From Pseudaquabacterium terrae (lineage in GTDB: Bacteria > Pseudomonadota > Gammaproteobacteria > Burkholderiales > Burkholderiaceae_C), in NCBI RefSeq assembly GCF_013266755.1, contig NZ_JABRWJ010000007.1:310001-374000 (forward strand): DNA of 64,000 bases, written 5' to 3'. Shown piece by piece: positions 22,545-39,947 of this stretch (positions are counted from its first letter, which is position 1; each line of letters opens with the position of its first letter). Below the pieces are notes generated by a model that did no database searches, was not told where the DNA came from, and worked only from the letters and a program-made list of their open reading frames with translations. The position numbers and the translations under genes were made by a program.

Positions 22545-24524
<1,980 letters not shown>

Positions 24525-24687
24525 GCGGGGTCTCCTGCTATGGGTAGGCCAAAACTGCCGCGACGCTATCGGGAGGCTCTTACGAACCGCTTACTCCCGA
24601 CGGATCGGTTGCGGCCGAGGGGCCAGTCACGATGGTCGCATACGCGGCACCTAAAATCCTACCCGGTGCGACCCCACGCTCTCCCCA

Positions 24688-25299
24688 ATGATTCCTGATC
24701 CGCAGAAGACTCCCATCCGCCTCCGTCCCCTGCCCAACCTGATCTTCGCCAGCCGCTGGCTGCAGTTGCCGCTCTACCTCGGTTTGATCGTCGCGCAAGG
24801 CGTGTACGTCTTCCACTTCTGGGTCGAGCTGGTGCACCTGGTCGAGGCCGCGTTCGGCGACCAGCAGGCCCTGGCGCAGCTCGTGAAGAGTGCCGGCTAC
24901 GTGCCCGGCAGCGACGGCGAGATCGCCTTCAACGAGACGCTGATCATGCTGGTCGTGCTCGGCCTGATCGACGTCGTGATGATCAGCAACCTGCTGATCA
25001 TGGTGATCGTCGGCGGCTACGAGACCTTCGTTTCGCGCATGGACCTCGAAGGCCATCCGGACCAGCCGGAATGGTTGAGCCACGTCAATGCCTCGGTGCT
25101 GAAGGTCAAGCTCGGCACGGCGATCATCGGCATCAGCTCGATCCACCTGCTGAAGACCTTCATCAACGCGCCCAACCTGACCGAGAAGACGATGCTGTGG
25201 CAGACCGCGATCCACATCGCCTTCCTGCTGTCAGCGATGGCCATCGCCGCCTCCGACCGCATCCTCGGCGGTGCCGGCGCATCCAACGCCAGGCACTGA
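24688..25299 (+). CDS. YqhA family (UPF0114) membrane protein
   Basis: A 203-residue inner-membrane protein of the YqhA/TIGR00645 family. The N-terminal [20 protein letters not shown], the central [36 protein letters not shown] and the C-terminal [21 protein letters not shown] give about four membrane helices with family-typical wording. Function is not established. It lies 30 nt upstream of the fumarase gene on the same strand and may be co-transcribed with it. Confidence 0.88.
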
Positions 25300-25329
25300 A
25301 TTTTCCCCGCCGCCCGAAAGCCCTCCGCC

Positions 25330-26856
25330 ATGAGCACCACGATCCGCCAGGCCGACCTGGTCGAAAGCATCGCCGCCGCGTTGCAGTACATCAGCTACTA
25401 CCACCCGGCCGACTACATCACCCACCTCGCGCGCGCCTACGAGCGCGAGGAAAGCCCGGCGGCGAAGGACGCGATCGCGCAGATCCTGACCAACTCGAAG
25501 ATGTGCGCCGAGGGCCGGCGCCCGATCTGCCAGGACACCGGCATCGTCAACGTGTTCCTGAAGATCGGCATGGACGTGCGGTGGGAAGGCTTCACCGGCT
25601 CGATCGCCGATGCCGTCAACGCCGGCGTGCGCCAGGGCTACCTGAACCCGGACAACGTGCTGCGCGCCTCGGTGCTGAACGACCCGATCTTCGAGCGCAA
25701 GAACACCAAGGACAACACGCCCGCCGTGGTGCACATGGAGGTGGTGCCGGGCAACACGATCGACGTGATCGTCGCTGCCAAGGGCGGCGGCAGCGAGAAC
25801 AAGAGCAAGATGCAGATGCTCAACCCGAGCGACTCGATCGTCGACTGGGTGCTGAAGACGGTGCCGACGATGGGCGCCGGCTGGTGCCCGCCGGGCATGC
25901 TCGGCATCGGCGTCGGCGGCACCGCCGAGAAGGCCGTGCTGCTGGCCAAGGAAGCGCTGATGGACGACATCGACATGTACGAGCTGCTGCAGCGCGGACC
26001 GTCGAACAAGCTGGAAGAGCTGCGCCTCGAGCTCTACGAGAAAGTCAACGCGTTGGGCATCGGCGCGCAGGGCCTGGGCGGGCTGACCACCGTGCTCGAC
26101 GTCAAGATCAAGACCTTCGCGACGCACGCCGCGAGCAAGCCGATCGCGATGATCCCGAACTGCGCCGCGACGCGCCACGCGCACTTCGTGCTCGACGGCT
26201 CGGGCCCGGCCTACATCGACCCGCCGAGCCTGGACCTGTGGCCCGACGTGAAATGGGCGCCCGACTACAACAAGAGCAAGCGGGTCGACCTCAACACGCT
26301 GACGAAGGCCGAAGTGGCGAGCTGGAAGCCCGGCGACACGCTGCTGCTGAACGGCAAGATGCTGACCGGCCGAGATGCCGCGCACAAGCGCATCCAGGAC
26401 ATGCTGGCCAAGGGTGAGCAATTGCCGGTCGACTTCACGAACCGCGTCATCTACTACGTCGGCCCGGTCGACCCGGTGCGCGACGAAGTGGTCGGCCCGG
26501 CCGGCCCGACGACGGCGACGCGCATGGACAAGTTCACCGAGATGATGCTGGCCCAGACCGGCCTGATCTCGATGGTCGGCAAGGCCGAGCGCGGCCCGGT
26601 GGCGATCGAGGCGATCCGCAAGCACGGCTCGGCCTACCTGATGGCCGTGGGCGGTGCCGCGTACCTGGTGGCCAAGGCGATCAAGGGCGCGCAGGTCGTC
26701 GGCTTTGCCGACCTCGGCATGGAGGCGATCTACGAGTTCGACGTCCAGGACATGCCGGTGACAGTGGCGGTCGATGCGCAAGGCACCAGCGTGCACAACA
26801 CCGCGCCGAAGGAATGGCAGGCGAAGATCGGCAAGATTCCGGTCGCCACCGCCTAG
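25330..26856 (+). CDS. Fumarate hydratase, class I (Fe-S)
   Basis: A 508-residue iron-sulfur fumarase converting fumarate to malate in the TCA cycle. Three candidate [4Fe-4S] ligands have the spacing of FumA-type enzymes: C67 (ICQDTG), C186 (GWCPPG) and C278 (PNCAATRH). The C-terminal domain shows VGPVDPVRDEVVGPAGPTTATRMD and YEFDVQDMPVTVAVD. The start is ATG at 25330. A terminator follows 30 nt after the stop. Oxygen-sensitive by family knowledge; a class II fumarase may exist elsewhere in the genome. Confidence 0.95.
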   Translation: MSTTIRQADLVESIAAALQYISYYHPADYITHLARAYEREESPAAKDAIAQILTNSKMCAEGRRPICQDTGIVNVFLKIGMDVRWEGFTGSIADAVNAGVRQGYLNPDNVLRASVLNDPIFERKNTKDNTPAVVHMEVVPGNTIDVIVAAKGGGSENKSKMQMLNPSDSIVDWVLKTVPTMGAGWCPPGMLGIGVGGTAEKAVLLAKEALMDDIDMYELLQRGPSNKLEELRLELYEKVNALGIGAQGLGGLTTVLDVKIKTFATHAASKPIAMIPNCAATRHAHFVLDGSGPAYIDPPSLDLWPDVKWAPDYNKSKRVDLNTLTKAEVASWKPGDTLLLNGKMLTGRDAAHKRIQDMLAKGEQLPVDFTNRVIYYVGPVDPVRDEVVGPAGPTTATRMDKFTEMMLAQTGLISMVGKAERGPVAIEAIRKHGSAYLMAVGGAAYLVAKAIKGAQVVGFADLGMEAIYEFDVQDMPVTVAVDAQGTSVHNTAPKEWQAKIGKIPVATA

Positions 26857-27275: not shown

Positions 27276-29099
27276 GTGGAACGATCCATCCTTTATCCGG
27301 CCGACGCTTTTCGCCAGGCCCGCGAGTCCCGCGAACCCGATTGCGCGGATCTGATCATCGAGAGCCTCGAAGCGCTGGGCATCGAATACGTCTTCGGCGT
27401 TCCGGGCGGCGCGATCGAGCCGCTGTACAACGCGCTGGCGCGCAGCGGCCGCCGCGGTGGGCCACAGGCCGTCGTCGCGCGCAACGAATCCGGCGCGGCC
27501 TACATGGCTGACGGGTATGCCCGCGAGACCGGCAAGATCGGCGTCTGCATCGCCACCTCCGGCCCCGGCGCGACCAACCTGATCACCGGCGTCGCCTGCG
27601 CGTTCGACAACAGCGTGCCGATGCTGGTGATCACCGGCCAGCCGCCGATCCACTCGTTCGGCAAGGGTGCGCTGCAGGAGTCGAGCTGCACCGGCGTCAA
27701 CACGGTGGGCATGTTCCGCCACTGCACACGCTACAACTCGCTGGTCTCGCACGCCGACCAGCTGCCGACGAAACTCTTCAACGCGCTGATGCAGGCGCAG
27801 CGCGCGCCGATGGGCCCGAGCCACCTGTCGCTGCCGGTGGACATCCTGCGCCAGACGATGGCGATGCAGCCCGATGCAGCGACCTTCGCCGACCTGCTGA
27901 ACCGGCCCTCGGCGATGATCGACGTCGCCGCCACCGAGTCGCTGTCGCGCCTGCTGAAAGCGGCCGAGCGGCCGGTCTGGCTGATCGGCGACGGCTGCGG
28001 CGAGGCCATTCCGGCGCTGATGCAGCTGGTGCAGCTCACCGACGGCCACTTCATCACGACGCCCGACGGCAAGGGCTTCGTCAATCCGCGGCATCCGCGC
28101 TTCGCCGGCGTGTTCGGCTTTGGCGGTCATTCGACGGCGCGCGAGCTGCTAGCCAGCCGCCCCGACCTGGTGATCGCCCTGGGCACCGGCTTCGGCGAAT
28201 TCAACAGCGGCGGCTGGTCGGCCCAGCTGCTGAACAGCCGGCTGGTGCACGTCGATACCTGCGATGACAAGCTGATGCGCTCGCAGACCGCGCGGCTGCA
28301 CGTGCGCGGCAACATCCGCTCGGTGTGCGAGCAGCTCTTGAGCCTGCTGGCACCGTCGGGCGAGGCCGTGAACGTGCTGCCGTTCCAGCACCCGCAGGTC
28401 GCGAAGCTGGCCTACGAATCGATGGTCGACAAGCCCGAGGCATTGCGCGACACGGGCAGTCCCGTCAAGCCGCAGCGCCTGATCGGCACGCTCGGCGAGC
28501 GTTGCCCCCCGCATACGCGCTTCGTCGCCGACGCCGGCAACAGCGCCGCCTGGTCGGTGCACTACCTGGCGCCGCACGACCGTCGCGGCGCGGCGCGCGC
28601 CGCGACCAGCCCGCCAGCCGGGCGCGACCAGCGCACCAGCCGCTCGAGCTGGCTGCGCGTGACGATGGACTTCGCGCCGATGGGCTGGGCGATCGGCTCG
28701 GCCATCGGCATCGCGCTGGGCAACCCGCGCTGCCCGGTGGTCTGCCTGACCGGCGACGGCAGCTACCTGATGAACGGCCAGGAGATCACCGTTGCTGCCG
28801 AGCTCGGCCTGCCGGTGCTCTACGTCGTGCTCAACGACGGCGCGCTCGGCATGGTCAAGCACGGCCAGCGCCTGGCCGGCGCCGAGCCGATCGGCTTCCA
28901 GCTGCCGACGGTCGACTACGCGGCGATCGCCGCGGCGATGGGCATCCCCGGCCACGTGATCCGCAGCCCGCAGGACTTGGACGCGCTGGACTTCAACGCG
29001 ATCCTGTCGCGCAAGGGGCCGACGCTGCTGGACGTGCGCATCGATGGCGAGGAAGTGCCGCCGATCAATGTTCGGATGAAGACTCTCGGAACTGCGTAA
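27276..29099 (+). CDS. Acetolactate-synthase-like ThDP-dependent enzyme (copy 1)
   Basis: A 607-residue ThDP enzyme built like acetolactate synthase: Pyr domain with YVFGVPGGAIEPLYNAL and catalytic Glu E71 in ARNESGAAYMADGYAR, a central domain, and a PP domain with GDGSYLMNGQ (from 493) ending at LND (N520) for Mg-ThDP. Compared with true acetolactate synthases, the residue before the catalytic Glu is Asn rather than His, and a ~25-residue Arg/Ser-rich insert precedes RVTMDFAPMGWAIG. It is a close paralogue of the gene at 35969. Likely chemistry is decarboxylation or C-C ligation/lysis of a 2-oxo or 2-hydroxyacyl substrate. It heads a five-gene run with an SDR, two citrate-synthase-like proteins and a P450. 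The start is uncertain: GTG at 27276 matches the paralogue's start, but the frame is open to 27066. Confidence 0.85.
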   Translation: MERSILYPADAFRQARESREPDCADLIIESLEALGIEYVFGVPGGAIEPLYNALARSGRRGGPQAVVARNESGAAYMADGYARETGKIGVCIATSGPGATNLITGVACAFDNSVPMLVITGQPPIHSFGKGALQESSCTGVNTVGMFRHCTRYNSLVSHADQLPTKLFNALMQAQRAPMGPSHLSLPVDILRQTMAMQPDAATFADLLNRPSAMIDVAATESLSRLLKAAERPVWLIGDGCGEAIPALMQLVQLTDGHFITTPDGKGFVNPRHPRFAGVFGFGGHSTARELLASRPDLVIALGTGFGEFNSGGWSAQLLNSRLVHVDTCDDKLMRSQTARLHVRGNIRSVCEQLLSLLAPSGEAVNVLPFQHPQVAKLAYESMVDKPEALRDTGSPVKPQRLIGTLGERCPPHTRFVADAGNSAAWSVHYLAPHDRRGAARAATSPPAGRDQRTSRSSWLRVTMDFAPMGWAIGSAIGIALGNPRCPVVCLTGDGSYLMNGQEITVAAELGLPVLYVVLNDGALGMVKHGQRLAGAEPIGFQLPTVDYAAIAAAMGIPGHVIRSPQDLDALDFNAILSRKGPTLLDVRIDGEEVPPINVRMKTLGTA

Positions 29100-29104
29100 T
29101 CGAC

Positions 29105-29866
29105 ATGCAAAGCGACATGCAAAGGCTACAAGGCAAGACCGCCCTGATCACCGGCGGCAGCAGCGGCATCGGGCTCGCCACCGCGAAACTCTTTCTCGAA
29201 CAGGGTGCGCGCGTCGCGATCACCGGTCGGGACGCGTCGGCACTGGCGTCCGCCCGCGCCAGCCTGGGCAACGACGTCGAGGCGTTCCGGAGCGATGCCT
29301 CGAAGACCGCCGACATCGATGCGCTGATGGGCGCGGTCGGGCAGCGATTCGGACACCTGGACGTGCTGTTCGTCAACGCAGCCTCGCTGCGCCCGGCGCC
29401 GTTCGAGGCTGTGGATGAAGCGCGCTTCGACGAGGACGTCGCGGCCAACTTCAAGGGCTGCTTCTTCGCCGTGCAGAAGGCGCTGCCGCTGCTGCGGCCC
29501 AAGGCGTCGGTGATCCTGACCACCTCGATCGCCAACCAGATGGGTTCCCCGAACTTCAGCGTCTACAGCGCGTGCAAGGCGGCGCAGCGCTCGCTGGTGC
29601 AGACCCTGGCACTCGAACTGATCGGCCGCGGCATTCGCGTCAACGCGATCAGCCCGGGGCCGATCGCGACACCGATCTGGGCCAAGTTCGGACTGCCCGC
29701 CGAGGTCGTGGAGGCCGCACAGCGGGAGATCCTGAGCAAGTCGCCGTCGAAGCGTTTCGGCGAGGCCGACGAGGTGGCGCGGTCGGTGCTGTTCCTCGCC
29801 AGCGACGACTCGTCGTACGTAGTCGGCCAGGAACTTGCCGTCGACGGCGGCATGAGCCTGCTATGA
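29105..29866 (+). CDS. SDR family oxidoreductase in the ThDP/P450 operon
   Basis: A 253-residue classical SDR. The cofactor loop is TGGSSGIG, beta-2 ends ITGRDAS, which favours NADP(H), and the motif VNAAS replaces the usual NNAG. The active site Ser is in TTSIAN, and Tyr/Lys are in YSACK. The C-terminus SSYVVGQELAVDGGMSLL is family-typical. It probably acts on a keto/hydroxy intermediate of the operon's pathway. It starts 5 nt after the ThDP gene, and its TGA overlaps the next ATG (ATGA). A second ATG at 29117 is equally possible as start. Confidence 0.88.
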   Translation: MQSDMQRLQGKTALITGGSSGIGLATAKLFLEQGARVAITGRDASALASARASLGNDVEAFRSDASKTADIDALMGAVGQRFGHLDVLFVNAASLRPAPFEAVDEARFDEDVAANFKGCFFAVQKALPLLRPKASVILTTSIANQMGSPNFSVYSACKAAQRSLVQTLALELIGRGIRVNAISPGPIATPIWAKFGLPAEVVEAAQREILSKSPSKRFGEADEVARSVLFLASDDSSYVVGQELAVDGGMSLL

Positions 29867-30681
29867 GCGCACCGGTGACGCCCGTGCGCACGCGCATCTG
29901 GCAGGAGGAGGCCGAGGCCGACAACGCCTTTGCGACGCGCACCGCCCATTGCCACGGCTACGACGTCTACGGCCAGATGCTGGGCCATGCGCGCTGGGTG
30001 GAGATGCTGTACCTGCTGTTTCGCGGGGAAGCACCGGATGCGGCGCAGGCCGCGCTGCTCGAAGCGCTCGCCGTCGGGCTGGCGAACGCCGGACCGCGCG
30101 ATCCGGCGGTGCATGCGGCCATGTGCGCCGGCATCGGCGGCTCCCCCGCTGCAGCCGCGCTGATGGCAGCCCTCGCGGTGGGGGCGGGCCAACACACCGG
30201 CGCACGTGAAGTGCTGCTGGCAATGGAGGCTTGGCAGGCCTGCGGAACCGACCTTGCAGCGTGGCGCCGTCATCTGCAGCGGCCCGCGACGACCAGCACC
30301 GACATCTGGCCCGACCACAGCGAGCCACCGGGCTTCGACCCGCACGGCACCTCGGTCGCCGGCACGGTGCGCCAGGCCTTGCACCGCATGACTGAACTGA
30401 GCCCGGGCACCTCCCTGGCATGGCTCGGAGCGCAGCGCGTCGAGCTCGAGCGATGCGCCGGGGGCCCGCTGGCGATGACGGGAGTGGCGGCGGCCGCACT
30501 GACCGACCTCGGCTTCAGCCCGGAGGCCGGCGAAATGCTGTTCCTGCTAATGCGCCTGCCGGGTGCCGCAGCCCACGCGCTAGAGCAGCGTTCGAATTCG
30601 TACCGGGACTTCCCGTTCTTTGCCGTCGAACTGCAGGATGACCCCGGCCGTTCGAAGACTGCCGCGAGAGCCGAGCAATGA
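29863..30681 (+). CDS. Citrate-synthase-like protein A (short, partly degenerate)
   Basis: A 272-residue protein resembling the citrate synthase/citryl-CoA lyase superfamily but much shorter than citrate synthase (~430). GAGQHTGAREVLLAM aligns with the GPxHGGAxExxL helix and keeps the His (H111). GFDPHG (H161) lies where GFGHxV is expected. The catalytic Asp segment reads AMTGVAAAALTDLGF, with Thr206 apparently in place of Asp. LPGAAAHALEQ closes the domain as in the family. It is translationally coupled on both sides (ATGA overlaps). With the next gene it may form a heteromer; condensation or cleavage of an acyl-CoA is plausible but unproven. Confidence 0.7.
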   Translation: MSAPVTPVRTRIWQEEAEADNAFATRTAHCHGYDVYGQMLGHARWVEMLYLLFRGEAPDAAQAALLEALAVGLANAGPRDPAVHAAMCAGIGGSPAAAALMAALAVGAGQHTGAREVLLAMEAWQACGTDLAAWRRHLQRPATTSTDIWPDHSEPPGFDPHGTSVAGTVRQALHRMTELSPGTSLAWLGAQRVELERCAGGPLAMTGVAAAALTDLGFSPEAGEMLFLLMRLPGAAAHALEQRSNSYRDFPFFAVELQDDPGRSKTAARAEQ

Positions 30682-31505
30682 GCGCTAGCCGACGATCCCT
30701 GCACGACGGCGTCGGTCGCCTGCGCACGCGCATGGGCGCCGCCTTCGTCGGCCAGCGGGCGGTCTTTCGCGGCCACGATCTTCACGCCGACCTGAAGGAC
30801 GCCGACTGGGTCGACCTGTACGTGTTCGGCATCACCGGTCGTCGCCACACGGCGAAGCAGCTGAAACTGCTGCATGCGATCTGGGTTTACACGAGCTACC
30901 CGGACGCGCGCATCTGGAACAACCGCGTCGCCGCGCTCGCCGGCACGACGCGCAGTTCGGGCAACCTGGGCGCCTCGGCGGCATTGGCGGTGTCGGAGGC
31001 GTCGATCTACGGCCGCGGCATCGACATCCGCGCGGCGCGCTTCCTGACCGGCACGTTGAACCGCATGCGCGACGGCACCTCGCTGGCGGACTGCGTGCGC
31101 GTCGAGCTCGATCGCCATCGCGGCCTGGCCGGCTATGGGCGGCCAATCGCCGCCGGCGACGAACGGCTCGAGCCGACGCTGGCACTGGCGCATCGGCTGG
31201 GCCTCGACGGCGGGCCGCACCTCCAACTTGCAAAGGACGTGGAGCAGTTTCTGCTCGATGGTCGCTGGCGCTGGCGCATGAACTATGCCGCCTTGTCGGC
31301 AGCGCTGACCGCCGACCTCGGCTTCACGCCGCGCGAACATTACCTGTTCGGCTTCCCCGCCTTCCTCGCCGGCATGCAGCCGTGCTTCATCGAAGCCTGC
31401 GAACAGCCTGCCGGCACGCTGTTCCCGATACCGTGCAGCCACGTCGCCTACGAAGGCGCGGCCAGGCGCCCTTGGCCCCCTAAATCCTCCCGCCATGAAC
31501 CCTGA
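30678..31505 (+). CDS. Citrate-synthase-like protein B (catalytic residues lost)
   Basis: A 275-residue relative of citrate synthase/citryl-CoA lyase. LLHAIWVYTSYPDARIWNNRVAALAGT is the recognisable large-domain helix pair. All three catalytic positions appear changed: the GPxHGGA His reads EASIYGRG (Tyr111), GFGHxV reads GYGRPI (Arg155), and the Asp segment reads NYAALSAALTADLGF (Ala204). It therefore looks like a non-catalytic partner or an enzyme with new chemistry. It begins inside the preceding stop (ATGA) and overlaps the P450 start by 11 nt, so synthesis of the two citrate-synthase-like proteins and the P450 is linked. Confidence 0.68.
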   Translation: MSASRRSLHDGVGRLRTRMGAAFVGQRAVFRGHDLHADLKDADWVDLYVFGITGRRHTAKQLKLLHAIWVYTSYPDARIWNNRVAALAGTTRSSGNLGASAALAVSEASIYGRGIDIRAARFLTGTLNRMRDGTSLADCVRVELDRHRGLAGYGRPIAAGDERLEPTLALAHRLGLDGGPHLQLAKDVEQFLLDGRWRWRMNYAALSAALTADLGFTPREHYLFGFPAFLAGMQPCFIEACEQPAGTLFPIPCSHVAYEGAARRPWPPKSSRHEP

Positions 31506-32688
31506 TCCCTACACCCATTACGCGCGCATGCGCGCCACCACACCGGTCTCGTTCAACCCCGCGCTCCAGATGTGGGAGGTCTACCGCTACGCCGACATCC
31601 AGTCGGTGCTGGCCGATCCCGCGACCTTCTCGTCGGACCTGTCGGCCTACCAGACGATGGCGACGATGGACCCGCCGCGCCACACACAGCTGCGCAAGCT
31701 GGTCGCAAGGGCGTTCACCAGCAAGCTGATGGCTTCGCTCGAGCCGAGCATCCAGGCGATCACCGATGCGCTGCTCGACCGCGTCGAGCACACGGGCCGG
31801 ATGGACGCGATCGCCGACCTCGCCTTCGCGCTGCCGGTGACGGTGATCGCGGAGCTGCTCGGCTTGCCGGCGTCCGATCGCGAACGCTTCAAGCAGTGGT
31901 CGGTCCCCGCGATCCGTGTCGCCGAAGCGGAGCTGCACGGCCAGCCGCCTGAACCCGAGTGGCTCGCCGCCGTCGATGAACTGATGGCCTATCTCGGGGC
32001 ACTGGCCGAACAACGGCGCAGCGCGCCGCGCGAAGACCTGATCAGCGGTCTGGTGCACGCCGAGATCGACGGCGCCCGGCTGACGGCCGAGGAGATCACG
32101 AGCACCTGCCGGCTGCTGCTCATCGCCGGCTTCGAGACCACTGCCAACCTGATCGGCAACACGCTGCAGCTGCTGCTGGCGCATCCGGCGGCCCTCGAAC
32201 GCGTGCGTTCCGATCCCGAACAGCTGGCCGGCGCAATCGACGAGTCGCTGCGCTTTCATGCCCCGTTCCAGTTCTTCGCCCGCAAGGCCACGCGTGACGT
32301 GACCATCGGCGGGCAAGCCATCGCTGCCGGACAGGTCGTGCTGATCTTCAACGCCTCCGGCAACCGCGACGAATCCGTGTTCGACAAGGCCGACGAGTTC
32401 GACATCGGCCGCAGCCCGAATCGCCACCTCAGCTTCGGTCACGGAATCCACTACTGCCTGGGTGCGGGACTGGGTCGGATGGAAGCACGCATCGGCATCG
32501 GCACCTTGCTGCGCCGCTTTCCGGCGCTGCATGTCGACGCTGCGCAGCCGGCAGAGCGCCTGCAGTCGATCGTCCTGTACGGCTGGCGCAGCCTGCCGCT
32601 GTCTACAGGTGATAGATCGCCTGCAGAACCACCGAACGCGGCGCCATCGGCAGGTCGTTCGGATAAGCGATGCCCGGTGACAGGCTAG
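31495..32688 (+). CDS. Cytochrome P450
   Basis: A 397-residue soluble bacterial P450. The oxygen-binding I-helix is LLIAGFETTANLI (AGFETT 211-216), the ExxR pair is ESLR (E250, R253), and the haem loop is FGHGIHYCLGAGLGRME with the cysteine ligand C321. PRHTQLRKLVARAFT, with the C-helix Arg/His contacts, is also present. No ferredoxin or reductase gene is adjacent. The usual C-terminus ends near residue 370; the extra tail of ~26 residues is encoded antisense to the end of the TonB receptor gene (86-nt overlap). It overlaps the upstream gene by 11 nt. The substrate is unknown; the operon suggests hydroxylation of an imported hydrophobic compound. Confidence 0.93.
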   Translation: MNPDPYTHYARMRATTPVSFNPALQMWEVYRYADIQSVLADPATFSSDLSAYQTMATMDPPRHTQLRKLVARAFTSKLMASLEPSIQAITDALLDRVEHTGRMDAIADLAFALPVTVIAELLGLPASDRERFKQWSVPAIRVAEAELHGQPPEPEWLAAVDELMAYLGALAEQRRSAPREDLISGLVHAEIDGARLTAEEITSTCRLLLIAGFETTANLIGNTLQLLLAHPAALERVRSDPEQLAGAIDESLRFHAPFQFFARKATRDVTIGGQAIAAGQVVLIFNASGNRDESVFDKADEFDIGRSPNRHLSFGHGIHYCLGAGLGRMEARIGIGTLLRRFPALHVDAAQPAERLQSIVLYGWRSLPLSTGDRSPAEPPNAAPSAGRSDKRCPVTG

Positions 32689-34711
32689 GTTCGCGCACGT
32701 CGGCGTTGAAGAGGTTGCGCACGGTCACGCCGAGCTCCCAGCCCTTCTTGCCGCGCGCGTTGCGCAGCACCAAGTCCAGCGTGGTGTAGTCGGCGATGTC
32801 GCTGCGCGGATCGCCGGCCGCGCGGCGACGGTCCGCCACGTGGTTGGCCTGGGCGCTGAACAGCCAGCCGCTGCGAAAGCTCCAGTCGGCGCGAGCCCAC
32901 AGGTGCTGCCGCGGCGCGTAGCCGGCGTCGCGCCCCGCATCCTCGTCGATCGAACGCTGGTAGGCGTAGTGACCGGAGAGTCGCAGGCCTCGGCTGGCCT
33001 GCCAGAGCGCCTCCAGCTCTGCGCCGCGGCCGCGCTGCGAACCGATGTTGTTGAAAACCGCGGAGCCGTCGCTGGCCTGGGTCGTGCGAATGATGTCGCG
33101 CATCGCATAGCGGAACATGTTCAGGTTCACCTGCAGGTCGACGCCGGCCTGCCAGGCCAGGGCCGCCTCGAGGGTGCGGATGGTCTCCGGTTGCAGGTCG
33201 GGATTACCGCGGATCACCGGGTTGTTGATGCTGTACTGCTCGGTGAACGATGGTGCGCGGAATGCGCGGCCGTAGAGCAGCTTCGTGGTGAGATCGAGGC
33301 TCGCGTCCCAGACCAGCGCTACGCGTGGATTCGTCGTCCCGCCGACATCGGAATAGCGGTCGTGCCTGACACCGGTCGTGAGCGTCCAGTCGCGGCGGAA
33401 ATTCCATTCGTCCTGCACGTAGACGTAGTCCACACGCCGGCGATGAGGTGCGACGAAGGACTCGGCCACCGGGAACTCGACCACTTGCGCGCCGGGCGTC
33501 GGCACGGGCAGCCCGATGAACGGCCCCGACGGGACCAGCGAGAAGTTCTTGAACTCCTGCGTCCGGTACATGTCGAGGTCGTCGTGGCCGATCCCCAGCC
33601 GCCACTGGTGGCCGTTGCTCGAATGGCTCACCACCGCCGCCAGCCGCACCTGCCGTTCCCAGGTCTGCGGCGCACCGATCATGCCTTGCGGGAAAGCACC
33701 GCCGAACGCTCCCGGCGGGAACAACTGCAGCGGCTGCGGAAACTCGTTGCTGTAGTGGAAGGCGCTCGCGCTCAGGTCCAGCTTCCAGCGCGGCGCAATC
33801 TCGATGTCGTTCCAGGAGAGATCGGTCAGGAAGCGCTCCGAACGCCCCTTGCCGACGGGATCCAGCGCGCCGGCGGCGCCCGCGCCGGTCCCGAGCTTGT
33901 CGCGCAGCTTGTAGCTCGCGCGCAGCTGCAGCTTGGACCATTCGAGGGCCAGGCTGGCGTCGACGCCCTCGTGGCCGGTGTTCACGGGCCCGGGCGCCAG
34001 GCTCGCCCGCGTTCCGAACAGGCCGTCGAGAAAACTCTGATTGTCGCGATCGATGGTGCGGCGGTAGCCGTCCGTCCTGCCGACGCGCAGGTACGCCGCG
34101 GCTTTCAGCGCCCCGATCTGCCCGCCGTGCTGGATCCATGCCTCGTAGGTCGAGAACGAGCCGCCGCGCACGCCGAACTCGGTCCCTGCCACATCGGCCG
34201 CACTCTTGGTGATGATGTTCACCACCCCGGCGTAGGCATCGGCTCCATAGAGCGCCGACCCCGGCCCGCGGATCACCTCGATCCGGGCGACGTTGTCGAG
34301 CGGCAGACCGCCCCACACGTTGCCGCGATTGCCGACGAACAACGTCGTCAGCGGCACGCCGTTGAGCAGCACCAGGGTCTGCGGATTGAACTCGCTGTAG
34401 ATGCCGCGCATGACATACAGGGCCGGGAAGCCCTGGTTGCTGCGGGAGACGTGGACCCCGGGCACGGCCTCCAGCGCCTCGTCGATGTCGCGGGCCCCCA
34501 TCGCGGCGATCTCTTCCGCGGTGATCACGGTCGCCACCGCCGGTGCCCGCCGCAGCGGCTGCCGATTGCCGGTCGCGATGCTGATCGACGCCTTGTCGCC
34601 GAAGGCCATCGCCAACTCGTCCTCCTCGACGGCGGCTTGTGCGACGGCGCTGCCAGCCTGCAGCGCCATGAGCCAGATCAAGGACTGCGCTGCACAACAT
34701 ACAGGACGCAT
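32603..34711 (-). CDS. TonB-dependent outer-membrane receptor
   Basis: A 702-residue receptor with a signal peptide (LIWLMALQAGSAVAQA), a plug domain (PAVATVITAEEIAAMGARDIDEALEAVPGV ... LVLLNGVPL ... VARIEVIRGPGSALYGADAYAGVVNIITK) and a 22-strand type beta-barrel. The barrel ends in an aromatic-rich strand, RSVVLQAIYHL. The sequence is closest in style to BtuB/FepA-like receptors; the ligand is not evident. The ATG at 34711 was chosen over 34774 because an AGGAGGGG site precedes it. It is probably in one transcript with the SGNH hydrolase gene upstream and converges on the P450 gene. Context suggests it imports the substrate of the ThDP/P450 pathway. Confidence 0.92.
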   Translation of the reverse strand: MRPVCCAAQSLIWLMALQAGSAVAQAAVEEDELAMAFGDKASISIATGNRQPLRRAPAVATVITAEEIAAMGARDIDEALEAVPGVHVSRSNQGFPALYVMRGIYSEFNPQTLVLLNGVPLTTLFVGNRGNVWGGLPLDNVARIEVIRGPGSALYGADAYAGVVNIITKSAADVAGTEFGVRGGSFSTYEAWIQHGGQIGALKAAAYLRVGRTDGYRRTIDRDNQSFLDGLFGTRASLAPGPVNTGHEGVDASLALEWSKLQLRASYKLRDKLGTGAGAAGALDPVGKGRSERFLTDLSWNDIEIAPRWKLDLSASAFHYSNEFPQPLQLFPPGAFGGAFPQGMIGAPQTWERQVRLAAVVSHSSNGHQWRLGIGHDDLDMYRTQEFKNFSLVPSGPFIGLPVPTPGAQVVEFPVAESFVAPHRRRVDYVYVQDEWNFRRDWTLTTGVRHDRYSDVGGTTNPRVALVWDASLDLTTKLLYGRAFRAPSFTEQYSINNPVIRGNPDLQPETIRTLEAALAWQAGVDLQVNLNMFRYAMRDIIRTTQASDGSAVFNNIGSQRGRGAELEALWQASRGLRLSGHYAYQRSIDEDAGRDAGYAPRQHLWARADWSFRSGWLFSAQANHVADRRRAAGDPRSDIADYTTLDLVLRNARGKKGWELGVTVRNLFNADVREPSLSPGIAYPNDLPMAPRSVVLQAIYHL

Positions 34712-34803
34712 GCCGGGACCCCTCCTCGTCGTTGAGTCGGCCGATCCTACAGCCGACACCATGCGGTCCCCCATCCGGTTTGCTGCCGAACAGACGGTGC
34801 GGC

Positions 34804-35631
34804 TCAGCGCCCCCCGTCGCCGCGGCGGTGGATCTCCTGCGCGATCGTCCTGGCCGCCTTGCGCACGGTCGCCGCATCGGGATGAACGCCGTCACCTCCG
34901 TGTCGGAAGTCCTTCCAGATGTCCAGCACCAGCGCGCCGGCCAGTTCAGCGCGCAGGCGCATGCGCACGAGGTCGCGCAGGGCACGGTAGTCGGTTTCCC
35001 CGATGACCCAGGCCAGACCGAACATCGAGCGGAACAGCGGCAGGTCGAGGTCCTCATAGCGCGGATGTACGTCGTAGATCGGTGTCAGGCCCCTGGCCAA
35101 CGCGGACTGTCCCACGGCAATCAGTCGATCGGCCACGCCGTTGATCTGTGCCGGGGTGCATGGCTGCGACAAGGCCTGCGGCACGCCGAAGGCATCGGCA
35201 TGCAGGCAGTCGTTTGGTGCGGTGATCACCACATAGCGCGCGTTGTACGTGGTGAAGGTCGGCGGCAGCGCGACCCGTGCCAATGCCCGGTCGAACTGGG
35301 TCTGAAAGCCGTCCCACGACGCCGGCCCGCAGGTCGGCGAGCCTGGTGGACAGTAGGGCCGCGGGAAGGTCGTGGCCCCGGCCTGGCCTTCGTTGATGAC
35401 GTAACCCGGCAGCCGCTCGTCACGGATCAGCGCGGTGCCCAGGCTGATGTACGACCCGAAGCCGACCGAGATGCCACCCAGCGGCGCGATGCCGTTGTTG
35501 AAGGGGGTCTTGCCTTCCGAGTACGACCCGCCGATCAGCAGGAGCGGCAGATCGGAGGCCTTGTCCTTGGCTTGCACCGCGGCCATGGCGGCGCATGCGG
35601 TGGCGAGGGTGGTCCATTTCTTCAGGTTCAT
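34804..35631 (-). CDS. Secreted SGNH/GDSL-type hydrolase
   Basis: A 275-residue protein with a signal peptide (TTLATACAAMAAVQA). It shows an SGNH-like active site: Ser36 in LLIGGSYSEG, Asn140 in ITAPNDC, and Asp247/His250 in GDGVHPDA. Such enzymes cleave esters. Cysteine pairs (PPGSPTCG, APNDC, SQPC) suggest disulfides and a periplasmic or extracellular site. GGGAGAG-like ribosome sequence (GGGAGAG) precedes the ATG at 35631. It is the first gene of the unit that also carries the TonB receptor, so it may release a ligand from an ester before uptake (inference). Confidence 0.8.
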   Translation of the reverse strand: MNLKKWTTLATACAAMAAVQAKDKASDLPLLLIGGSYSEGKTPFNNGIAPLGGISVGFGSYISLGTALIRDERLPGYVINEGQAGATTFPRPYCPPGSPTCGPASWDGFQTQFDRALARVALPPTFTTYNARYVVITAPNDCLHADAFGVPQALSQPCTPAQINGVADRLIAVGQSALARGLTPIYDVHPRYEDLDLPLFRSMFGLAWVIGETDYRALRDLVRMRLRAELAGALVLDIWKDFRHGGDGVHPDAATVRKAARTIAQEIHRRGDGGR

Positions 35632-35968
35632 GTCGACTCTCCCTGGGTGGTGTGAGGCACGGCGTTCCTAACGCCTGTCGCGCGCGGCGGGCGCCACGCG
35701 TGACCCCTTTTCGTCATGCCGTCGTCGGACTTGATGTGCACCCGCGTCCTCCGTCCATTAGCCCTACTTCGGTAATAGGCAAAACAAGCATAAACGATAA
35801 AACTGGCATACTCGTGCACAGCTTCACGGCAAGAAGTCTTCAAGGACCGCCAGAAGCCCGCCTGCTGGGATCAGCGGGGCGCAACACGCGACAGGCTCGG
35901 CCTGCCGCAATGCAGCGATCAGCAGGGTCAGGCGCCCGGCGCGGGCCCCGGACCAGGGAGTGCACCAC
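35632..35968. other. Divergent promoter region, SGNH hydrolase / ThDP copy 2
   Basis: About 340 bp with no gene. The stretch 35755-35820 is markedly AT-rich for this genome (GCAAAACAAGCATAAACGAT and nearby) and is the best place for promoters in both directions. An imperfect palindrome CCTACTTCGGTAATAGG lies at 35763-35779. The ribosome site of ThDP copy 2 (AGGGAG) is at 35955-35960. Confidence 0.55.
35763..35779. promoter_or_regulatory. Imperfect palindrome CCTACTTCGGTAATAGG
   Basis: The outer arms CCTA/TAGG are perfect and the interior is partly symmetric. It lies in the AT-rich divergent gap between the SGNH/TonB unit and ThDP copy 2. Its CTACTT half resembles the arm of the palindrome at 4275-4294, but this may be chance. 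Confidence 0.3.
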
Positions 35969-37798
35969 ATGGACAACGCGCTGGCCCGGGCGGATGTCTT
36001 CCGCCGTGACGAGCAGGCATTCGCCGCGCCCGTCGACGCCGCCGACCTGATCATCCGCAGCCTCGAGGCGCTCGGCGTCGAGTACGTCTTCGGCATCCCC
36101 GGTGGCGCGATCGAGCCGCTGTACAACGCGCTCGCCCGCAGCGCGCGCCGAGGCGGCCCGCAGCCGGTCGTCGCCCGCCACGAGACCGGCGCGGCCTGCA
36201 TGGCCGACGGTTATGCGCGCGAGACCGGCAAGCTCGGCGTCTGCATTGCCACCTCGGGCCCCGGCGCGACCAACCTGATCACCGGCGTCGCCTGCGCCTA
36301 CGACAACCAGGTGCCGCTGCTGGTGCTGACCGGCCAGCCGCCGCAGCACTCCTGGGGCAAGCGCGCATTGCAGGAGTCGAGCTGCAGCGGCATCGACACG
36401 GTCGCGATGCTGCGCCACTGCACGCGCTACAGCTCGCTGGTCTCGCATCCCGACCAGCTGTGGCCCAAGCTGCACAACGCGCTGATGAAGGCGCAAGGCT
36501 TCCCGCAGGGCCCGGCACACCTGTCGTTGCCGGTCGACCTGCTGCGCGGACCGCTGCCGACGCCACCCGCCGGCAACGACTGGGCCGGTGCGCTGCTGCG
36601 GCGCGCGCCCGAGGTGACCGACGGGCCGGCAATCGAAGAACTGCACGCCTTGCTGGCCGGCGCGAAGCAGCCGGTCTTCCTGATCGGCCATGGCTGCGCC
36701 GAGGCCGCGCCGCTGCTGATGCGCCTGGTGCAGATGCACGGCGCGCTGTTCATCACCACGCCGGACGGCAAGGGCCTGGTGCATCCGCAGCATCCGGCCT
36801 ACCGCGGTGTGTTCGGCTTCGGCGGGCATGCCAACGCCGAGGCGCTGCTGGCCGCCGAGCCCGATCTGATCGTCGCCTTCGGCACCACCTTCAGCGAGCT
36901 CAACAGCGGCGGCTGGGCGGCCGGGCTGATGAACCGGCGCCTGGTGCACGTGGACTGCTGCGACGAGAACCTGATGTACTCGCCGAGCGCGCGGCTGCAC
37001 GTGCGCGGCCGGATCTCGACCGTGTGCGAGCAGCTGATCTCGATGCAGCAGCAGCGCACGCACGCCGGCAACGTGCTGCCTTTCCCCGAGCGCCGTGGGG
37101 AAAGTGCCGCGGCCGATGGGCTGCTGTGCAAGCCCGAGGCCTTCCACAGCGAAGCCACGCCGATCAAGCCGCAGCGGCTGATGAAGGCCTTGTCGCGGCT
37201 GTGCCCGCCGAACACCCGCTTCGTCGCCGACGCCGGCAACAGCGCGGTGTGGGCGGTGCACTACCTGTCGCCGCACGACCGCCGCGCGCCGCGCGCCGCG
37301 CACGAGCCGCTGCTGCTGCGCGAGCGCCGCCAGCACCGCGCCGGCTGGCTGCGCGTGACGATGGACTTCGCGCCGATGGGCTGGGCGATCGGCGCGTCGA
37401 TCGGCATCGCTGCCGGCAACCGCGATTGCCCGGTCGTCTGCATCACCGGCGACGGCAGCTACCTGATGAACGGCCAGGAGATCACGGTCGCCGCCGAAGC
37501 CGGTCTGCCCGTGCTGTTCGTCGTGCTCAACGACGGCGCGCTCGGCATGGTCAAGCACGGCCAGCGCTTCGCGGGTGCCGAGGCCGTCGGTTTCCAGCTG
37601 CCGTCGATCGACTACGCGGCGCTGGCGGCGGCAATGGGCATCCCGGGCCACGTGATCCGCTCGCCGCAGGACCTCGAGGCGCTGGACATGGGTGCGATCC
37701 TGTCCCGCAAGGGGCCGACGCTGCTCGACGTGCGCGTCGATGGCGAGGAAGCCGCGCCGATGAACCTGCGCATGCGCACGCTGGGTACGGCCAAGTGA
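35969..37798 (+). CDS. Acetolactate-synthase-like ThDP-dependent enzyme (copy 2)
   Basis: A 609-residue close paralogue of the product of 27276-29099; long stretches of the C-terminal domain are nearly identical. Catalytic Glu is E72 in ARHETGAACMADGYAR, and the ThDP/Mg segment starts at GDGSYLMNGQ (494). Here His precedes the Glu, as in most acetolactate synthases, whereas copy 1 has Asn, so the two may differ in substrate. No small regulatory subunit gene (ilvN) is near either copy. The start is ATG at 35969, 8 nt after AGGGAG. It is divergent from the SGNH/TonB unit and is followed by a convergent binding-protein gene. Confidence 0.88.
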   Translation: MDNALARADVFRRDEQAFAAPVDAADLIIRSLEALGVEYVFGIPGGAIEPLYNALARSARRGGPQPVVARHETGAACMADGYARETGKLGVCIATSGPGATNLITGVACAYDNQVPLLVLTGQPPQHSWGKRALQESSCSGIDTVAMLRHCTRYSSLVSHPDQLWPKLHNALMKAQGFPQGPAHLSLPVDLLRGPLPTPPAGNDWAGALLRRAPEVTDGPAIEELHALLAGAKQPVFLIGHGCAEAAPLLMRLVQMHGALFITTPDGKGLVHPQHPAYRGVFGFGGHANAEALLAAEPDLIVAFGTTFSELNSGGWAAGLMNRRLVHVDCCDENLMYSPSARLHVRGRISTVCEQLISMQQQRTHAGNVLPFPERRGESAAADGLLCKPEAFHSEATPIKPQRLMKALSRLCPPNTRFVADAGNSAVWAVHYLSPHDRRAPRAAHEPLLLRERRQHRAGWLRVTMDFAPMGWAIGASIGIAAGNRDCPVVCITGDGSYLMNGQEITVAAEAGLPVLFVVLNDGALGMVKHGQRFAGAEAVGFQLPSIDYAALAAAMGIPGHVIRSPQDLEALDMGAILSRKGPTLLDVRVDGEEAAPMNLRMRTLGTAK

Positions 37799-37812
37799 GG
37801 CGGCCGAACGCT

Positions 37813-38595
37813 TCAGCTCCCCGCCGCCAGCTCCTGCAAGGCCTCGGCCTTGTAGCGTTCGATCAGCCCCTCGGCTTTCATCTGCCGCAGCGTCGACGCC
37901 AGCTTCGGCGCCAGCGCCGCGTGCCGCTGGTTCAGGAACGGATGCAGCGGCGAGGAGCCCAGGTCGAGCGCGCGCCGCGTGATGTCGACATCCTTGAACT
38001 CGGCGCTGTGCTGCAGCGTGATCGCCGACAGGTCGCCGGTGCAGTGCAGGTCGACACGCCCGAAGCGCAGCATGTTGAAAGCCTGCTGGTCGGAGCTGAC
38101 GTCGAAAAGGCGCGTGGCGGGCAGCGCTGCCTTCAGCGTGTGTTCGCAGACGCCGACGCCGCGCAGGTAGGACACGCGCAAATCGGTGCCGGTGGCCAGC
38201 TCGGCCAGGTTCGCGAAGCGCCGCGAGCGGCCCATCGTGAACAGGCCCCAGGTCAGGTCGTAGACCGATTCCTCGACCCGCACCAGCTGCGGCCGGCCTT
38301 CGGCATAGCTGTGCACGCGGGCCACTTCGCCGTCGATGCTGCCCTGCTCCGAATTGAGGGTCAGCCTTTGCAGCGGCTGCACGCTCAATTGCAGCGGCAC
38401 GCCCAGCCGGCGGAAGGCCTCGATGTAGATCTTGCGCTGCAGCTTGCCGGCGTAGGTGGTCTCGGCCTGGCTGGTGCCGAGCACCACGGTGCCCGGCGCG
38501 GCCGGCGGCTGGGCCGGCACGCCGATGCTCAACAGCATTGCGAACACCCCCAGGACAGCGAGGCGCTGTGCACGACGCACGGGCGGAGGGTCCAT
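37813..38595 (-). CDS. Periplasmic substrate-binding protein (family 3-like)
   Basis: About 260 residues with an export signal (RLAVLGVFAMLLSIGVPAQP) and a family-3 solute-binding fold: KIYIEAFRRLGVPLQLSVQPLQRL, NSEQGSIDGEVARV, LRVSYLRGVGVCEHTLK, and VDLHCTGDLSAITL. Closely related single genes without transporters occur in many proteobacteria, and no permease is adjacent here. The start is uncertain; the ATG at 38595 places the signal peptide near the N-terminus, but the frame is open to 38658. The ligand is unknown. It converges on ThDP copy 2 with a 14-nt gap. Confidence 0.72.
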   Translation of the reverse strand: MDPPPVRRAQRLAVLGVFAMLLSIGVPAQPPAAPGTVVLGTSQAETTYAGKLQRKIYIEAFRRLGVPLQLSVQPLQRLTLNSEQGSIDGEVARVHSYAEGRPQLVRVEESVYDLTWGLFTMGRSRRFANLAELATGTDLRVSYLRGVGVCEHTLKAALPATRLFDVSSDQQAFNMLRFGRVDLHCTGDLSAITLQHSAEFKDVDITRRALDLGSSPLHPFLNQRHAALAPKLASTLRQMKAEGLIERYKAEALQELAAGS

Positions 38596-38675
38596 GGCGG
38601 GTCGCGAAGCGGTGTTGCAACGCATCGTAGGCCGCTGCATTCGCGCGGTCAAACCCACTCACAGGAGAGCACGGC

Positions 38676-39947
38676 ATGCTGAACACGACCCAGGCCGCGC
38701 CGGTGCGCCAGGCCATCGAGCGCCTGCAATGGACCAGCGCCCGCGGCATCGATCGCATCGACCTGAGCGAACGTGGCCTGCTCGACGCGGCGCGCTGCGA
38801 GACCGGCCTCGAGGACTTCGGCGACGACCACTTCCTGACCCCGCTGCGCCGGCTGCTGGCCGCGCTGCACGATGAAGCCGAGCTGAACCCGTTCGGCGAG
38901 CGCATCGCACATGGCCGCACGCTCGGCTCGCTGAAGAACCGGCTGTGGGCCCGCGCCTGCCTCGACGCCCATCCGGAGATCGCCGAGCGCCGCCTCGTCG
39001 CGCCGATCATCATCGTCGGGCCGCACCGCTCGGGCACCACACGGCTGCACCGGCTGCTGGCGGCCGACCGCCGGCTCGCGCACCTGCGCACCTGGGAAGG
39101 CATGAACCCGGCGCCGCGGCGCTGGATTGGCGCGCGCGCGGCGCCCGACGACGTGACGACGCGGCGCGTCGAAGCGGTGCAGGCGCTGGCAATGCGCCAC
39201 CGCATGTACCCGGAGTCGTCGACGATGCACGCGATGCACGCCGACTGGCCCGAGGAGGAGATGCTGCTGCTGAACCACGAGTTCGTCAGCTTCTCGGCGC
39301 TCGGGCTCTACGACGTGCCGGGCTACTACCGCTGGTTCATCGACGCCGACAAGACCGCCGCCTACCGCAGCATGGCCGAGCAGCTGAAGCTGGTGTCGTG
39401 GGCCCGCGGCGACGCCGACGGCACGCGCTGGGTGCTGAAGAACCCGCAGCACATGCTCGACCTGCCGGTGCTGCTGGCAACCTTTCCTGACGCGAAGATC
39501 GTCTTCACGCACCGCGATCCGCTGAAGACCGTCGGCTCGATGCTGTCGATGGCGCTGCACTTCGCGGTGCAGCACACTGACCGCGACTGCCGCACCAGCG
39601 TGCGCGACACCTGGCTCGACTTCTTCGAGCAGACCGCGCGCCGCTGCATGCAGTGGCGCGGCCGCATCCCGGCCGACCAGCAGCTCGACCTGCACTACGA
39701 GGACATGGAGAGTGATTGGCGCGGCCAGGTGCGGCGCATCTATCATTTCGCCGGGCTCGATTTCGACGCCGAAGCCGAGCGGTCGATGGCCGACTGGCTC
39801 GACCGCGACGCGCAGGCCGCGCGGCACGTCGGCCACCGCTATGCGCTGGAAGACTTCGGCCTGACGCGCGCGGCGGTGGACGAGCGCATGCGCTTCGTGC
39901 GCGACCGCTATTCGATCGGCTACGAAGGCGTGCGCGCAGCCGCCTGA
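38676..39947 (+). CDS. Sulfotransferase family protein
   Basis: A 423-residue protein with a PAPS-binding loop GPHRSGTTRLHRLLAA (residues 115-130) and the second PAPS-contact region WVLKNPQHMLDLPVLLATFPDAKIVFTHRDP (Arg/Ser-type 3'-phosphate site). It has LHYEDME and a C-terminal RHVGHRYALEDFGL. This matches the Sulfotransfer_3-like branch common in actinobacteria and proteobacteria, whose acceptors are mostly unknown. The start is ATG at 38676, 80 nt from the divergent binding-protein gene. Its last 28 bases overlap the convergent MscS gene. A link to the neighbouring ThDP/P450 genes is possible but not shown. Confidence 0.85.
   Translation: MLNTTQAAPVRQAIERLQWTSARGIDRIDLSERGLLDAARCETGLEDFGDDHFLTPLRRLLAALHDEAELNPFGERIAHGRTLGSLKNRLWARACLDAHPEIAERRLVAPIIIVGPHRSGTTRLHRLLAADRRLAHLRTWEGMNPAPRRWIGARAAPDDVTTRRVEAVQALAMRHRMYPESSTMHAMHADWPEEEMLLLNHEFVSFSALGLYDVPGYYRWFIDADKTAAYRSMAEQLKLVSWARGDADGTRWVLKNPQHMLDLPVLLATFPDAKIVFTHRDPLKTVGSMLSMALHFAVQHTDRDCRTSVRDTWLDFFEQTARRCMQWRGRIPADQQLDLHYEDMESDWRGQVRRIYHFAGLDFDAEAERSMADWLDRDAQAARHVGHRYALEDFGLTRAAVDERMRFVRDRYSIGYEGVRAAA

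Follow-up and report, generated by a model that had tools for sequence, protein, structure and literature searches.

A ThDP carboligase and citrate-synthase-like gene module of Pseudaquabacterium terrae and its relatives that may make and sense a small-molecule signal

Introduction

LuxPQ, which detects the small self-made molecule autoinducer-2, combines a periplasmic binding protein with a hybrid sensor kinase. The binding protein of another system, NspS-MbaA, is PotD-like. In Vibrio cholerae, the gene for this protein, NspS, lies immediately upstream of the gene for the inner-membrane GGDEF/EAL sensor MbaA, and the system responds to norspermidine made by the cell itself, as described in the accessible part of PMC8079147. 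Here we analyze a gene cluster in a 64,000-nucleotide stretch of Pseudaquabacterium terrae (contig NZ_JABRWJ010000007.1, positions 310,001 to 374,000; hereafter the window). The cluster encodes thiamine diphosphate (ThDP)-dependent enzymes, a pair of citrate-synthase-like proteins, CS1 and CS2, and a TonB-dependent receptor, which in relatives are accompanied by a PF04392 protein and a membrane sensor. We lean towards the view that this gene set makes a small-molecule signal and detects it.

The proposed system, as we read it, works like NspS-MbaA and LuxPQ, but by protein family it is a member of neither. As for NspS-MbaA, the binding-protein gene stands directly upstream of the sensor gene, here in 51 of 55 copies. 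However, the binding protein is a PF04392 protein (its only Pfam match) and not of the NspS polyamine-binding type, kinase and receiver domains are frequent among the outputs, and the pair is accompanied by a synthase and a TonB receptor. Compared with LuxPQ, which the proposed system resembles in how it would work, the binding-protein and sensor families are others, the synthase is of another kind and the TonB receptor is an addition.

On the enzyme side, one of the closest described systems is the pathway of the furanolide cyanobacterin. CybE is an alpha-hydroxy-beta-keto acid synthase that acts via acyloin condensation, and BbmA (printed BpmA) and CsmA are CybE homologues, according to the accessible part of PMC12395478; the ThDP enzymes of the window fall in the same superfamily. 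The second cyanobacterin enzyme, CybF, is a 3-oxoacyl-acyl carrier protein synthase (accessible part of PMC8777810), whereas here this place is taken by the CS1/CS2 pair. No ketosynthase was found by Pfam among 10 proteins scanned at the window locus, and the lack of this partner rules out a furanolide cluster proper. For CS1 and CS2, the best fold and profile matches are citrate synthase and the citryl-CoA lyase of Hydrogenobacter thermophilus (PDB 6hxp), from which they differ in that the catalytic His/His/Asp is not conserved and in that two paralogues are encoded by overlapping genes. The accessible part of PMC13288894 holds nothing on citrate-synthase-like proteins, and that of PMC7589939, on Methylobacter tundrenone, nothing on such a gene set. 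More generally, we found no description of the set in the open-licence literature; most subscription journals lay outside this search and could hold one.

Results

A conserved core of four genes

The cluster in the window comprises the following genes.

27276-29099, plus strand: ThDP1, a ThDP-dependent carboligase of the acetolactate-synthase superfamily, with a GTG start at 27276 and three TPP_enzyme domains (Pfam)
29105-29866, plus strand: short-chain dehydrogenase/reductase (SDR) oxidoreductase, a likely optional tailoring gene; adh_short_C2 (Pfam)
29863-30681, plus strand: CS1, 272 amino acids, predicted citryl-CoA-lyase fold without the canonical catalytic His274 and Asp375 (profile, fold and alignment)
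30678-31505, plus strand: CS2, 275 amino acids, putative partner of CS1 with the same predicted fold; conserved NNR, Y111, GYGRP and DER; no Pfam match
31495-32688, plus strand: cytochrome P450, a likely optional tailoring gene; p450 (Pfam)
32603-34774, minus strand: TonB-dependent receptor, part of the conserved core; Plug and TonB_dep_Rec (Pfam)
35960-37798, plus strand: ThDP2, a paralogue 68% identical to ThDP1; three TPP_enzyme domains (Pfam)

The original prediction, made from the letters of the window, had listed these genes, and all that it listed are present where it placed them; family scans agree with its two ThDP enzymes, SDR, P450 and convergent TonB receptor. The close junctions that it reported were also found: the SDR/CS1 and CS1/CS2 junctions are ATGA overlaps and CS2 and the P450 gene overlap by 11 nt. 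A gap of 5 nt separates ThDP1 from the SDR gene, and the P450 and receptor genes lie tail to tail with an 86-nt overlap.

Relatives were collected by a pattern-based scan of named genomes, in which 144 were found and the best 80 kept, giving 79 named loci, many of them on truncated contigs (two loci, L025 and L044, belong to one genome). Labels were assigned by tblastn at E<=1e-20 to 87 mapped loci, the named ones and 8 more, at least four of which repeat named loci; counts were made on the 79. CS2, the query, is in all 79, CS1 in 76, a ThDP gene in 68 and the TonB receptor in 67, and these four genes are the conserved core. The PF04392 protein is labelled in 54 loci and the sensor in 58, by a loose label that also catches unrelated kinases. 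The SDR (30/79) and P450 (5/79) genes look like optional tailoring genes because of these low counts, and a sulfotransferase is found at 7 loci. Fifty loci span 20 kb or more, and 36 of these have all six labels (ThDP, CS1, CS2, receptor, PF04392 and sensor). The commonest order, ThDP-CS1-CS2-receptor-PF04392-sensor, is found at 15 loci, followed by the same order with the SDR gene inserted after the ThDP gene (7 loci), and the window's order of CS2, P450 and convergent receptor is also seen at L081, L087 and L090. The 4-nt overlap of CS1 and CS2 is kept in 66 of 77 CS1 copies; this recurrence, together with that of the gene order in many genera, argues for a module beyond chance. Tandem duplications were noted for the CS1-CS2 pair (L033:5605-10852) and for ThDP-CS1-CS2 (L040:3563-10759).

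The named loci are mostly from Betaproteobacteria, with genera that include Roseateles, Pelomonas, Rugamonas, Massilia, Collimonas, Rhodoferax, Dechloromonas, Azonexus, Gallionella, Sideroxydans, Sulfuricella, Leptothrix and others; outside this group they come from a few gammaproteobacterial metagenome-assembled genomes (MAGs), one Fibrobacteres MAG, and Geobacter and its relatives. CS2 is present in three of the 21 genus genomes (E<=1e-3), in 8 of 250 in the family sample (E<=1e-40; relaxing this to E<=1e-3 adds three weak matches) and, in the class sample, in 41 of 369 (E<=1e-40). CS1 matched 38 of 398 genomes in the phylum sample at E<=1e-3 and three at E<=1e-40 (G000, which is the window genome, G352 and G733); the weaker matches may be other citrate-synthase-like proteins. 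No CS2 match at E<=1e-5 was found in 72,556 plasmid records.

When 1008 predicted neighbouring proteins were clustered all against all (30% identity, 60% coverage), no further family reached more than 10 of the 79 loci. Ten of the smaller clusters were scanned, namely aconitase B (10 loci), M28 peptidase (5), APS (adenosine 5'-phosphosulfate) kinase (4) and seven others with 3 loci apiece, and none of these ten is a transporter. No single inner-membrane importer family was found to recur widely, although a mixture of importers could escape such clustering and many loci are truncated.

Probably repurposed citrate-synthase-like proteins and a carboligase family

CS1 scores 25.6 bits against Pfam Citrate_synt, just under the cut-off of 27, and nothing in Pfam matches CS2 at E<=1. 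NCBIfam citryl-CoA lyase models match both proteins, far below cut-off, and these profiles place the two distantly within the citrate synthase / citryl-CoA lyase group. AlphaFold models (predicted local distance difference test, pLDDT, of 91 for CS1 and 80 for CS2) have 6hxp as their top Foldseek match in the PDB (E 6.5e-10 for CS1 and 3.6e-9 for CS2, TM-scores 0.65-0.73), such that the predicted structures share the citrate-synthase / citryl-CoA-lyase fold. A distant match to the CS2 profile that also matches Citrate_synt lies on another contig of the window genome (G000:C23:452254-453000, E 1.7e-14).

The canonical catalytic residues, which we take to be His274, His320 and Asp375 (pig numbering), were mapped through alignments to both proteins. 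CS2 has Tyr (45/47), Arg (47/47) and Ala or Gly (45/47) at these three positions, and N81 N82 R83 and D161 E162 R163 are invariant. In CS1, the His274 position is not conserved (H in 5/46) and the Asp position is Ser, Thr or Ala in 39/46 and never D, while a His found in 41/46 is near, not at, the His320 position and an Arg is kept in 44/46. These residues rule out an ordinary citrate synthase or citryl-CoA lyase. In CS2 at least, the pattern resembles that of a new, conserved site more than that of a decayed one. Because the genes overlap and are conserved together, we infer that CS1 and CS2 form a heteromer.

ThDP1 and ThDP2 form one family (1148 and 1113 bits), well apart from the genome's other ThDP genes (172 bits at most). 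The best solved relatives of ThDP1 are BbmA (288.7 bits) and CsmA (266.2 bits), followed by acetolactate synthase (214.6 bits); its best NCBIfam matches are acetolactate synthase models, all below cut-off.

A binding protein and sensor outside the window

Relatives carry the genes for the PF04392 protein and the sensor at the locus, and the window does not. In the window genome (8.04 Mb), the pair was found on the contig that carries CS2, some 92 kb away from it (C54:246408-249414, which is L144 6409-9415, minus strand), and its PF04392 protein is 64% identical to a copy from Aquabacterium CECT 9606 that is linked to the synthase genes there.

The PF04392 protein also follows CS2 from genome to genome. 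At E<=1e-40, the class sample has it in 44 of 369 genomes, which are 36 of the 41 with CS2 and 8 of the 328 without, and it is shared by 23 of 26 CS2 families. Six weak CS2 matches (E 1e-3 to 1e-40) were scored as negative here, two of which (G300 and G330) are fragments in PF04392-positive genomes. Both genes are on the same contig in 28 of the 36 class genomes that have both, and within 10 kb, start to start, in 26. In the family sample, the protein is present in 8/8 genomes with CS2 versus 5/242 others (Fisher 3.8e-12), and in the genus the two genes occur in the same 3 of 21 genomes (G000, G001 and G008), 92 kb apart or on different contigs, a coincidence of 1 in 1330 if they were independent; both values ignore phylogeny, and for this reason the co-occurrence within genus and family weighs most. 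In all three genus genomes with the system, the pair has a gene for a resistance-nodulation-division (RND)-type efflux pump, recognized by eye, directly upstream (L144:9426-12515 on contig C54 of the window genome, L161:7782-10871 and L162:3883-7074). This pump could export the product or merely mark a shared insertion site.

Three sensors, one of which is cut by the end of its locus, were scanned across their length and have three output layouts: HAMP-HisKA-HATPase-receivers-Hpt-receiver-GGDEF-EAL, HAMP-HisKA-HATPase-receiver and HAMP-PAS-GGDEF-EAL. The N-terminal region can be aligned over 19 chosen rows while the outputs vary. Motifs were tallied for the 52 frames that follow the 55 PF04392 copies, three copies being without a frame: GGDEF and EAL motifs are present in 33, EAL without a GGDEF motif in one, kinase or kinase-receiver motifs only in 11, and no motif in 7. 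Among 14 input regions scanned, sCache_4 is over cut-off in 6 (L028, L029, L032, L034, L048 and L101), below it in 7, the sensor of the window genome included, and absent in one, and none has a LuxQ-type periplasmic sensor domain. We therefore use sCache_4 as a tentative name for the region. The domain is known from BarA/GacS, whose signals are poorly known.

Receptors and receiver-only genomes

A search with the window receptor (E<=1e-60) covered 39 chosen genomes, in which those with neither CS2 nor the PF04392 protein were all from the window's family and those with the PF04392 protein only were from outside it. The receptor family was found in 7/7 genomes with CS2, in 11/13 with the PF04392 protein only (the exceptions being G471 and G469) and in 0/19 with neither. 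In 8 of the 11 receptor-positive PF04392-only genomes, the receptor is within 5 kb of the PF04392 gene. Sensor-like frames stand beside this gene in the receiver-only genomes G027, G250, G081 and G192, with PF04392, sensor and receptor in a row in G081; frame picking found no sensor-like frame in the PF04392 stretch of G224. The receiving module can thus exist without the synthase, which would fit listening and would also fit the use of foreign metal chelates.

Geobacter relatives

A ThDP label is missing from three of the loci that span 20 kb or more: L029 (Geobacter OR-1), L034 (Pelotalea chapellei) and L055 (Geobacter UBA6151). Reading L029 in full revealed a ThDP enzyme, TonB receptor, PF04392 protein and kinase-receiver sensor. 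Its CS pair is 64% (CS2) and 62% (CS1) identical to that of the window, versus 34% for the ThDP enzyme, 31% for the receptor and 24% for the PF04392 protein when compared with the proteins of the window or of its genome. At L034, the receptor shares 65% identity with the L029 one, and a PF04392 protein, a kinase-receiver sensor and, by eye, a ThDP gene are also present. At L029 and L034, distant relatives thus appear to take the same roles beside a CS pair that is near-identical, and this refilling favors a functional bond among the genes.

Neighboring genes

Three further genes of the locus were considered.

34804-35631, minus strand: putative secreted SGNH-like hydrolase (motifs by eye)
37813-38658, minus strand: solute-binding-like protein (by eye); no Pfam match at E<=1, with EhuB at E 0.19 as the sole match
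38676-39947, plus strand: sulfotransferase, an optional tailoring gene; Sulfotransfer_3 (Pfam), a family that recurs beside the system

The name of the hydrolase comes solely from what we take, by eye, to be SGNH-like motifs; no Pfam or NCBIfam match was found at E<=1, nor did tblastn at E<=1e-20 find a relative at any of the 87 mapped loci, so that it probably lies outside the conserved system. The predicted SGNH hydrolase-TonB unit thus stands for its receptor half, with the Plug and TonB_dep_Rec domains, and not for the hydrolase. Whether the solute-binding-like protein is a member of the system is uncertain. ThDP2 is near this protein and the sulfotransferase (35960-39947), perhaps for a second product. 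APS kinase makes the sulfate donor for sulfotransferases, and a member of the APS kinase family found at 4 of 79 loci is at L033:15153-15728. On one side, fumarase-like and acetyl-CoA synthetase-like genes flank the cluster (22545-26856). The same flank is present in G001 and G008 with 91-94% identity, which indicates that the cluster occupies one site in the genus.

Discussion

We favor, by a modest degree of confidence, a self-made small-molecule signal, in which the enzymes would make a diffusible molecule and the receptor, binding protein and sensor would detect it. This reading draws on gene content, gene order, overlaps, co-occurrence, folds and the loss of canonical residues. By analogy with its family, the ThDP enzyme would couple one 2-oxo acid to another, or an oxo acid to an aldehyde, to give an acyloin or alpha-hydroxy-beta-keto acid. 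A CS1/CS2 heteromer with a repurposed active site could join this product to an acyl-CoA or rearrange it, and in some lineages the SDR, P450 and sulfotransferase may tailor it. Once out of the cell, the product would be returned across the outer membrane by the TonB receptor and bound in the periplasm by the PF04392 protein, and the HAMP sensor, through its sCache_4-like input region, would pass the signal to histidine-kinase, receiver and cyclic di-GMP (c-di-GMP; GGDEF/EAL) outputs. Outward synthesis and inward sensing are the simplest flow given that the precursors within the enzymes' reach, oxo acids and acyl-CoA, are cytosolic, and that the receptor and binding protein are oriented outward and come with a sensor.

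A number of observations pull the other way. The solved relatives of the window receptor are the colicin I receptor, BtuB and siderophore receptors, and nutrients and metal chelates are the usual cargo of TonB receptors. Five receptors of one TonB family (C54:342606, C55:136937, C53:525108, C10:36558 and C54:215423) are found in the window genome, with one PF04392 copy; four of them are 50-67% identical to the fifth, the window's own, no other system gene was labelled in the stretches read around these four, and the five possibly serve several related ligands. Some loci, such as that of the Fibrobacteres MAG (L035), have ThDP, CS1 and CS2 with no labelled receptor or sensor nearby, the PF04392 protein is missing from five CS2 genomes of the class sample (G337, G367, G401, G466 and G582), and no exporter family was found to recur. 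The sCache_4 scores that fall short of cut-off and the blindness of the co-occurrence tests to phylogeny count on the same side, as does the unequal divergence in Geobacter, because of which the synthase pair and the sensing genes can have had separate histories.

Of the alternatives, a metallophore is the one that we take most seriously, although we consider it unlikely. Here, the ThDP and CS enzymes would make a small chelator of iron or another metal, the TonB receptor would import the complex, and the PF04392 protein and sensor would report levels of the metal complex. The solved relatives of the receptor speak for this reading. Gallionella, Sideroxydans, Geobacter, Leptothrix and Rhodoferax are iron-cycling, which would fit a metal-binding molecule, and genomes with the receptor and no synthase could use a foreign chelator. 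On the other hand, no recurring inner-membrane importer family was found within the limited coverage described above, and the near-constant placing of a sensor gene after the binding-protein gene (51 of 55 copies) counts against it. Somewhat less probable still is an exogenous compound that is sensed by the receptor and sensor and degraded by the ThDP, CS, SDR and P450 enzymes. The TonB receptor, the P450 and, in the window, the putative secreted hydrolase would suit such a role, as would genomes with receptor and PF04392 protein and no synthase genes, but the scarcity of the P450, the unmatched hydrolase and the lack of a recurring cytoplasmic uptake route among the clusters scanned do not. 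Gallionella, Sideroxydans and Sulfuricella are lithotrophs, and the presence of the system in such lithoautotrophic genera is a poor fit to catabolism. An antibiotic- or pigment-like product, whose level is monitored by its maker and which is recaptured by the receptor, seems very improbable. The variable tailoring genes (P450, sulfotransferase and SDR) and a ThDP enzyme like that of the furanolide pathway (PMC12395478, accessible part) would be in keeping with one. However, no resistance or dedicated export family was recognized among the recurrent clusters that we looked at. Such close co-occurrence with a sensor would, from general knowledge, also be unusual for clusters of this type.

The original prediction had seen in this locus an undescribed module, and its two families of citrate-synthase-like proteins do belong with the ThDP enzyme and the TonB receptor, the four recurring side by side in relatives. 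The absence of such co-occurrence, which the prediction had named as a refutation, was thus not seen. The pathway that it drew from them fares less well: extracellular ester cleavage would depend on a hydrolase with no relative at the mapped loci, hydroxylation on a P450 that few loci have, and import with catabolic remodelling on a carrier to the cytosolic enzymes, for which no single family was found to recur widely. We reject a pathway of ester cleavage, import and hydroxylation on these grounds. With the PF04392 protein and sensor found outside the window, the reading moves from catabolism towards synthesis and sensing.

Going beyond a self-made signal as such, it is possible, though we hold this with less confidence, that the genes constitute an undescribed proteobacterial cell-to-cell circuit, with a signal from a ThDP enzyme and a heteromeric pseudo-citrate-synthase, TonB uptake, PF04392/HAMP sensing, c-di-GMP and phosphorelay outputs, and species that only listen. 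Even with a metallophore as the product, CS1 and CS2 would form an uncharacterized protein family in which an altered active site is conserved. If the signal reading is correct, a ThDP carboligase acting with a repurposed pair of citrate-synthase fold would be new synthase chemistry, and sensors whose input region resembles sCache_4 would gain a binding-protein partner. The Betaproteobacteria concerned are iron oxidizers, denitrifiers, and soil and freshwater heterotrophs. A broad range of these environmental bacteria and some Geobacter relatives would then have a chemical language in common, for which candidates for the synthase, the uptake gate and the sensor can now be named.

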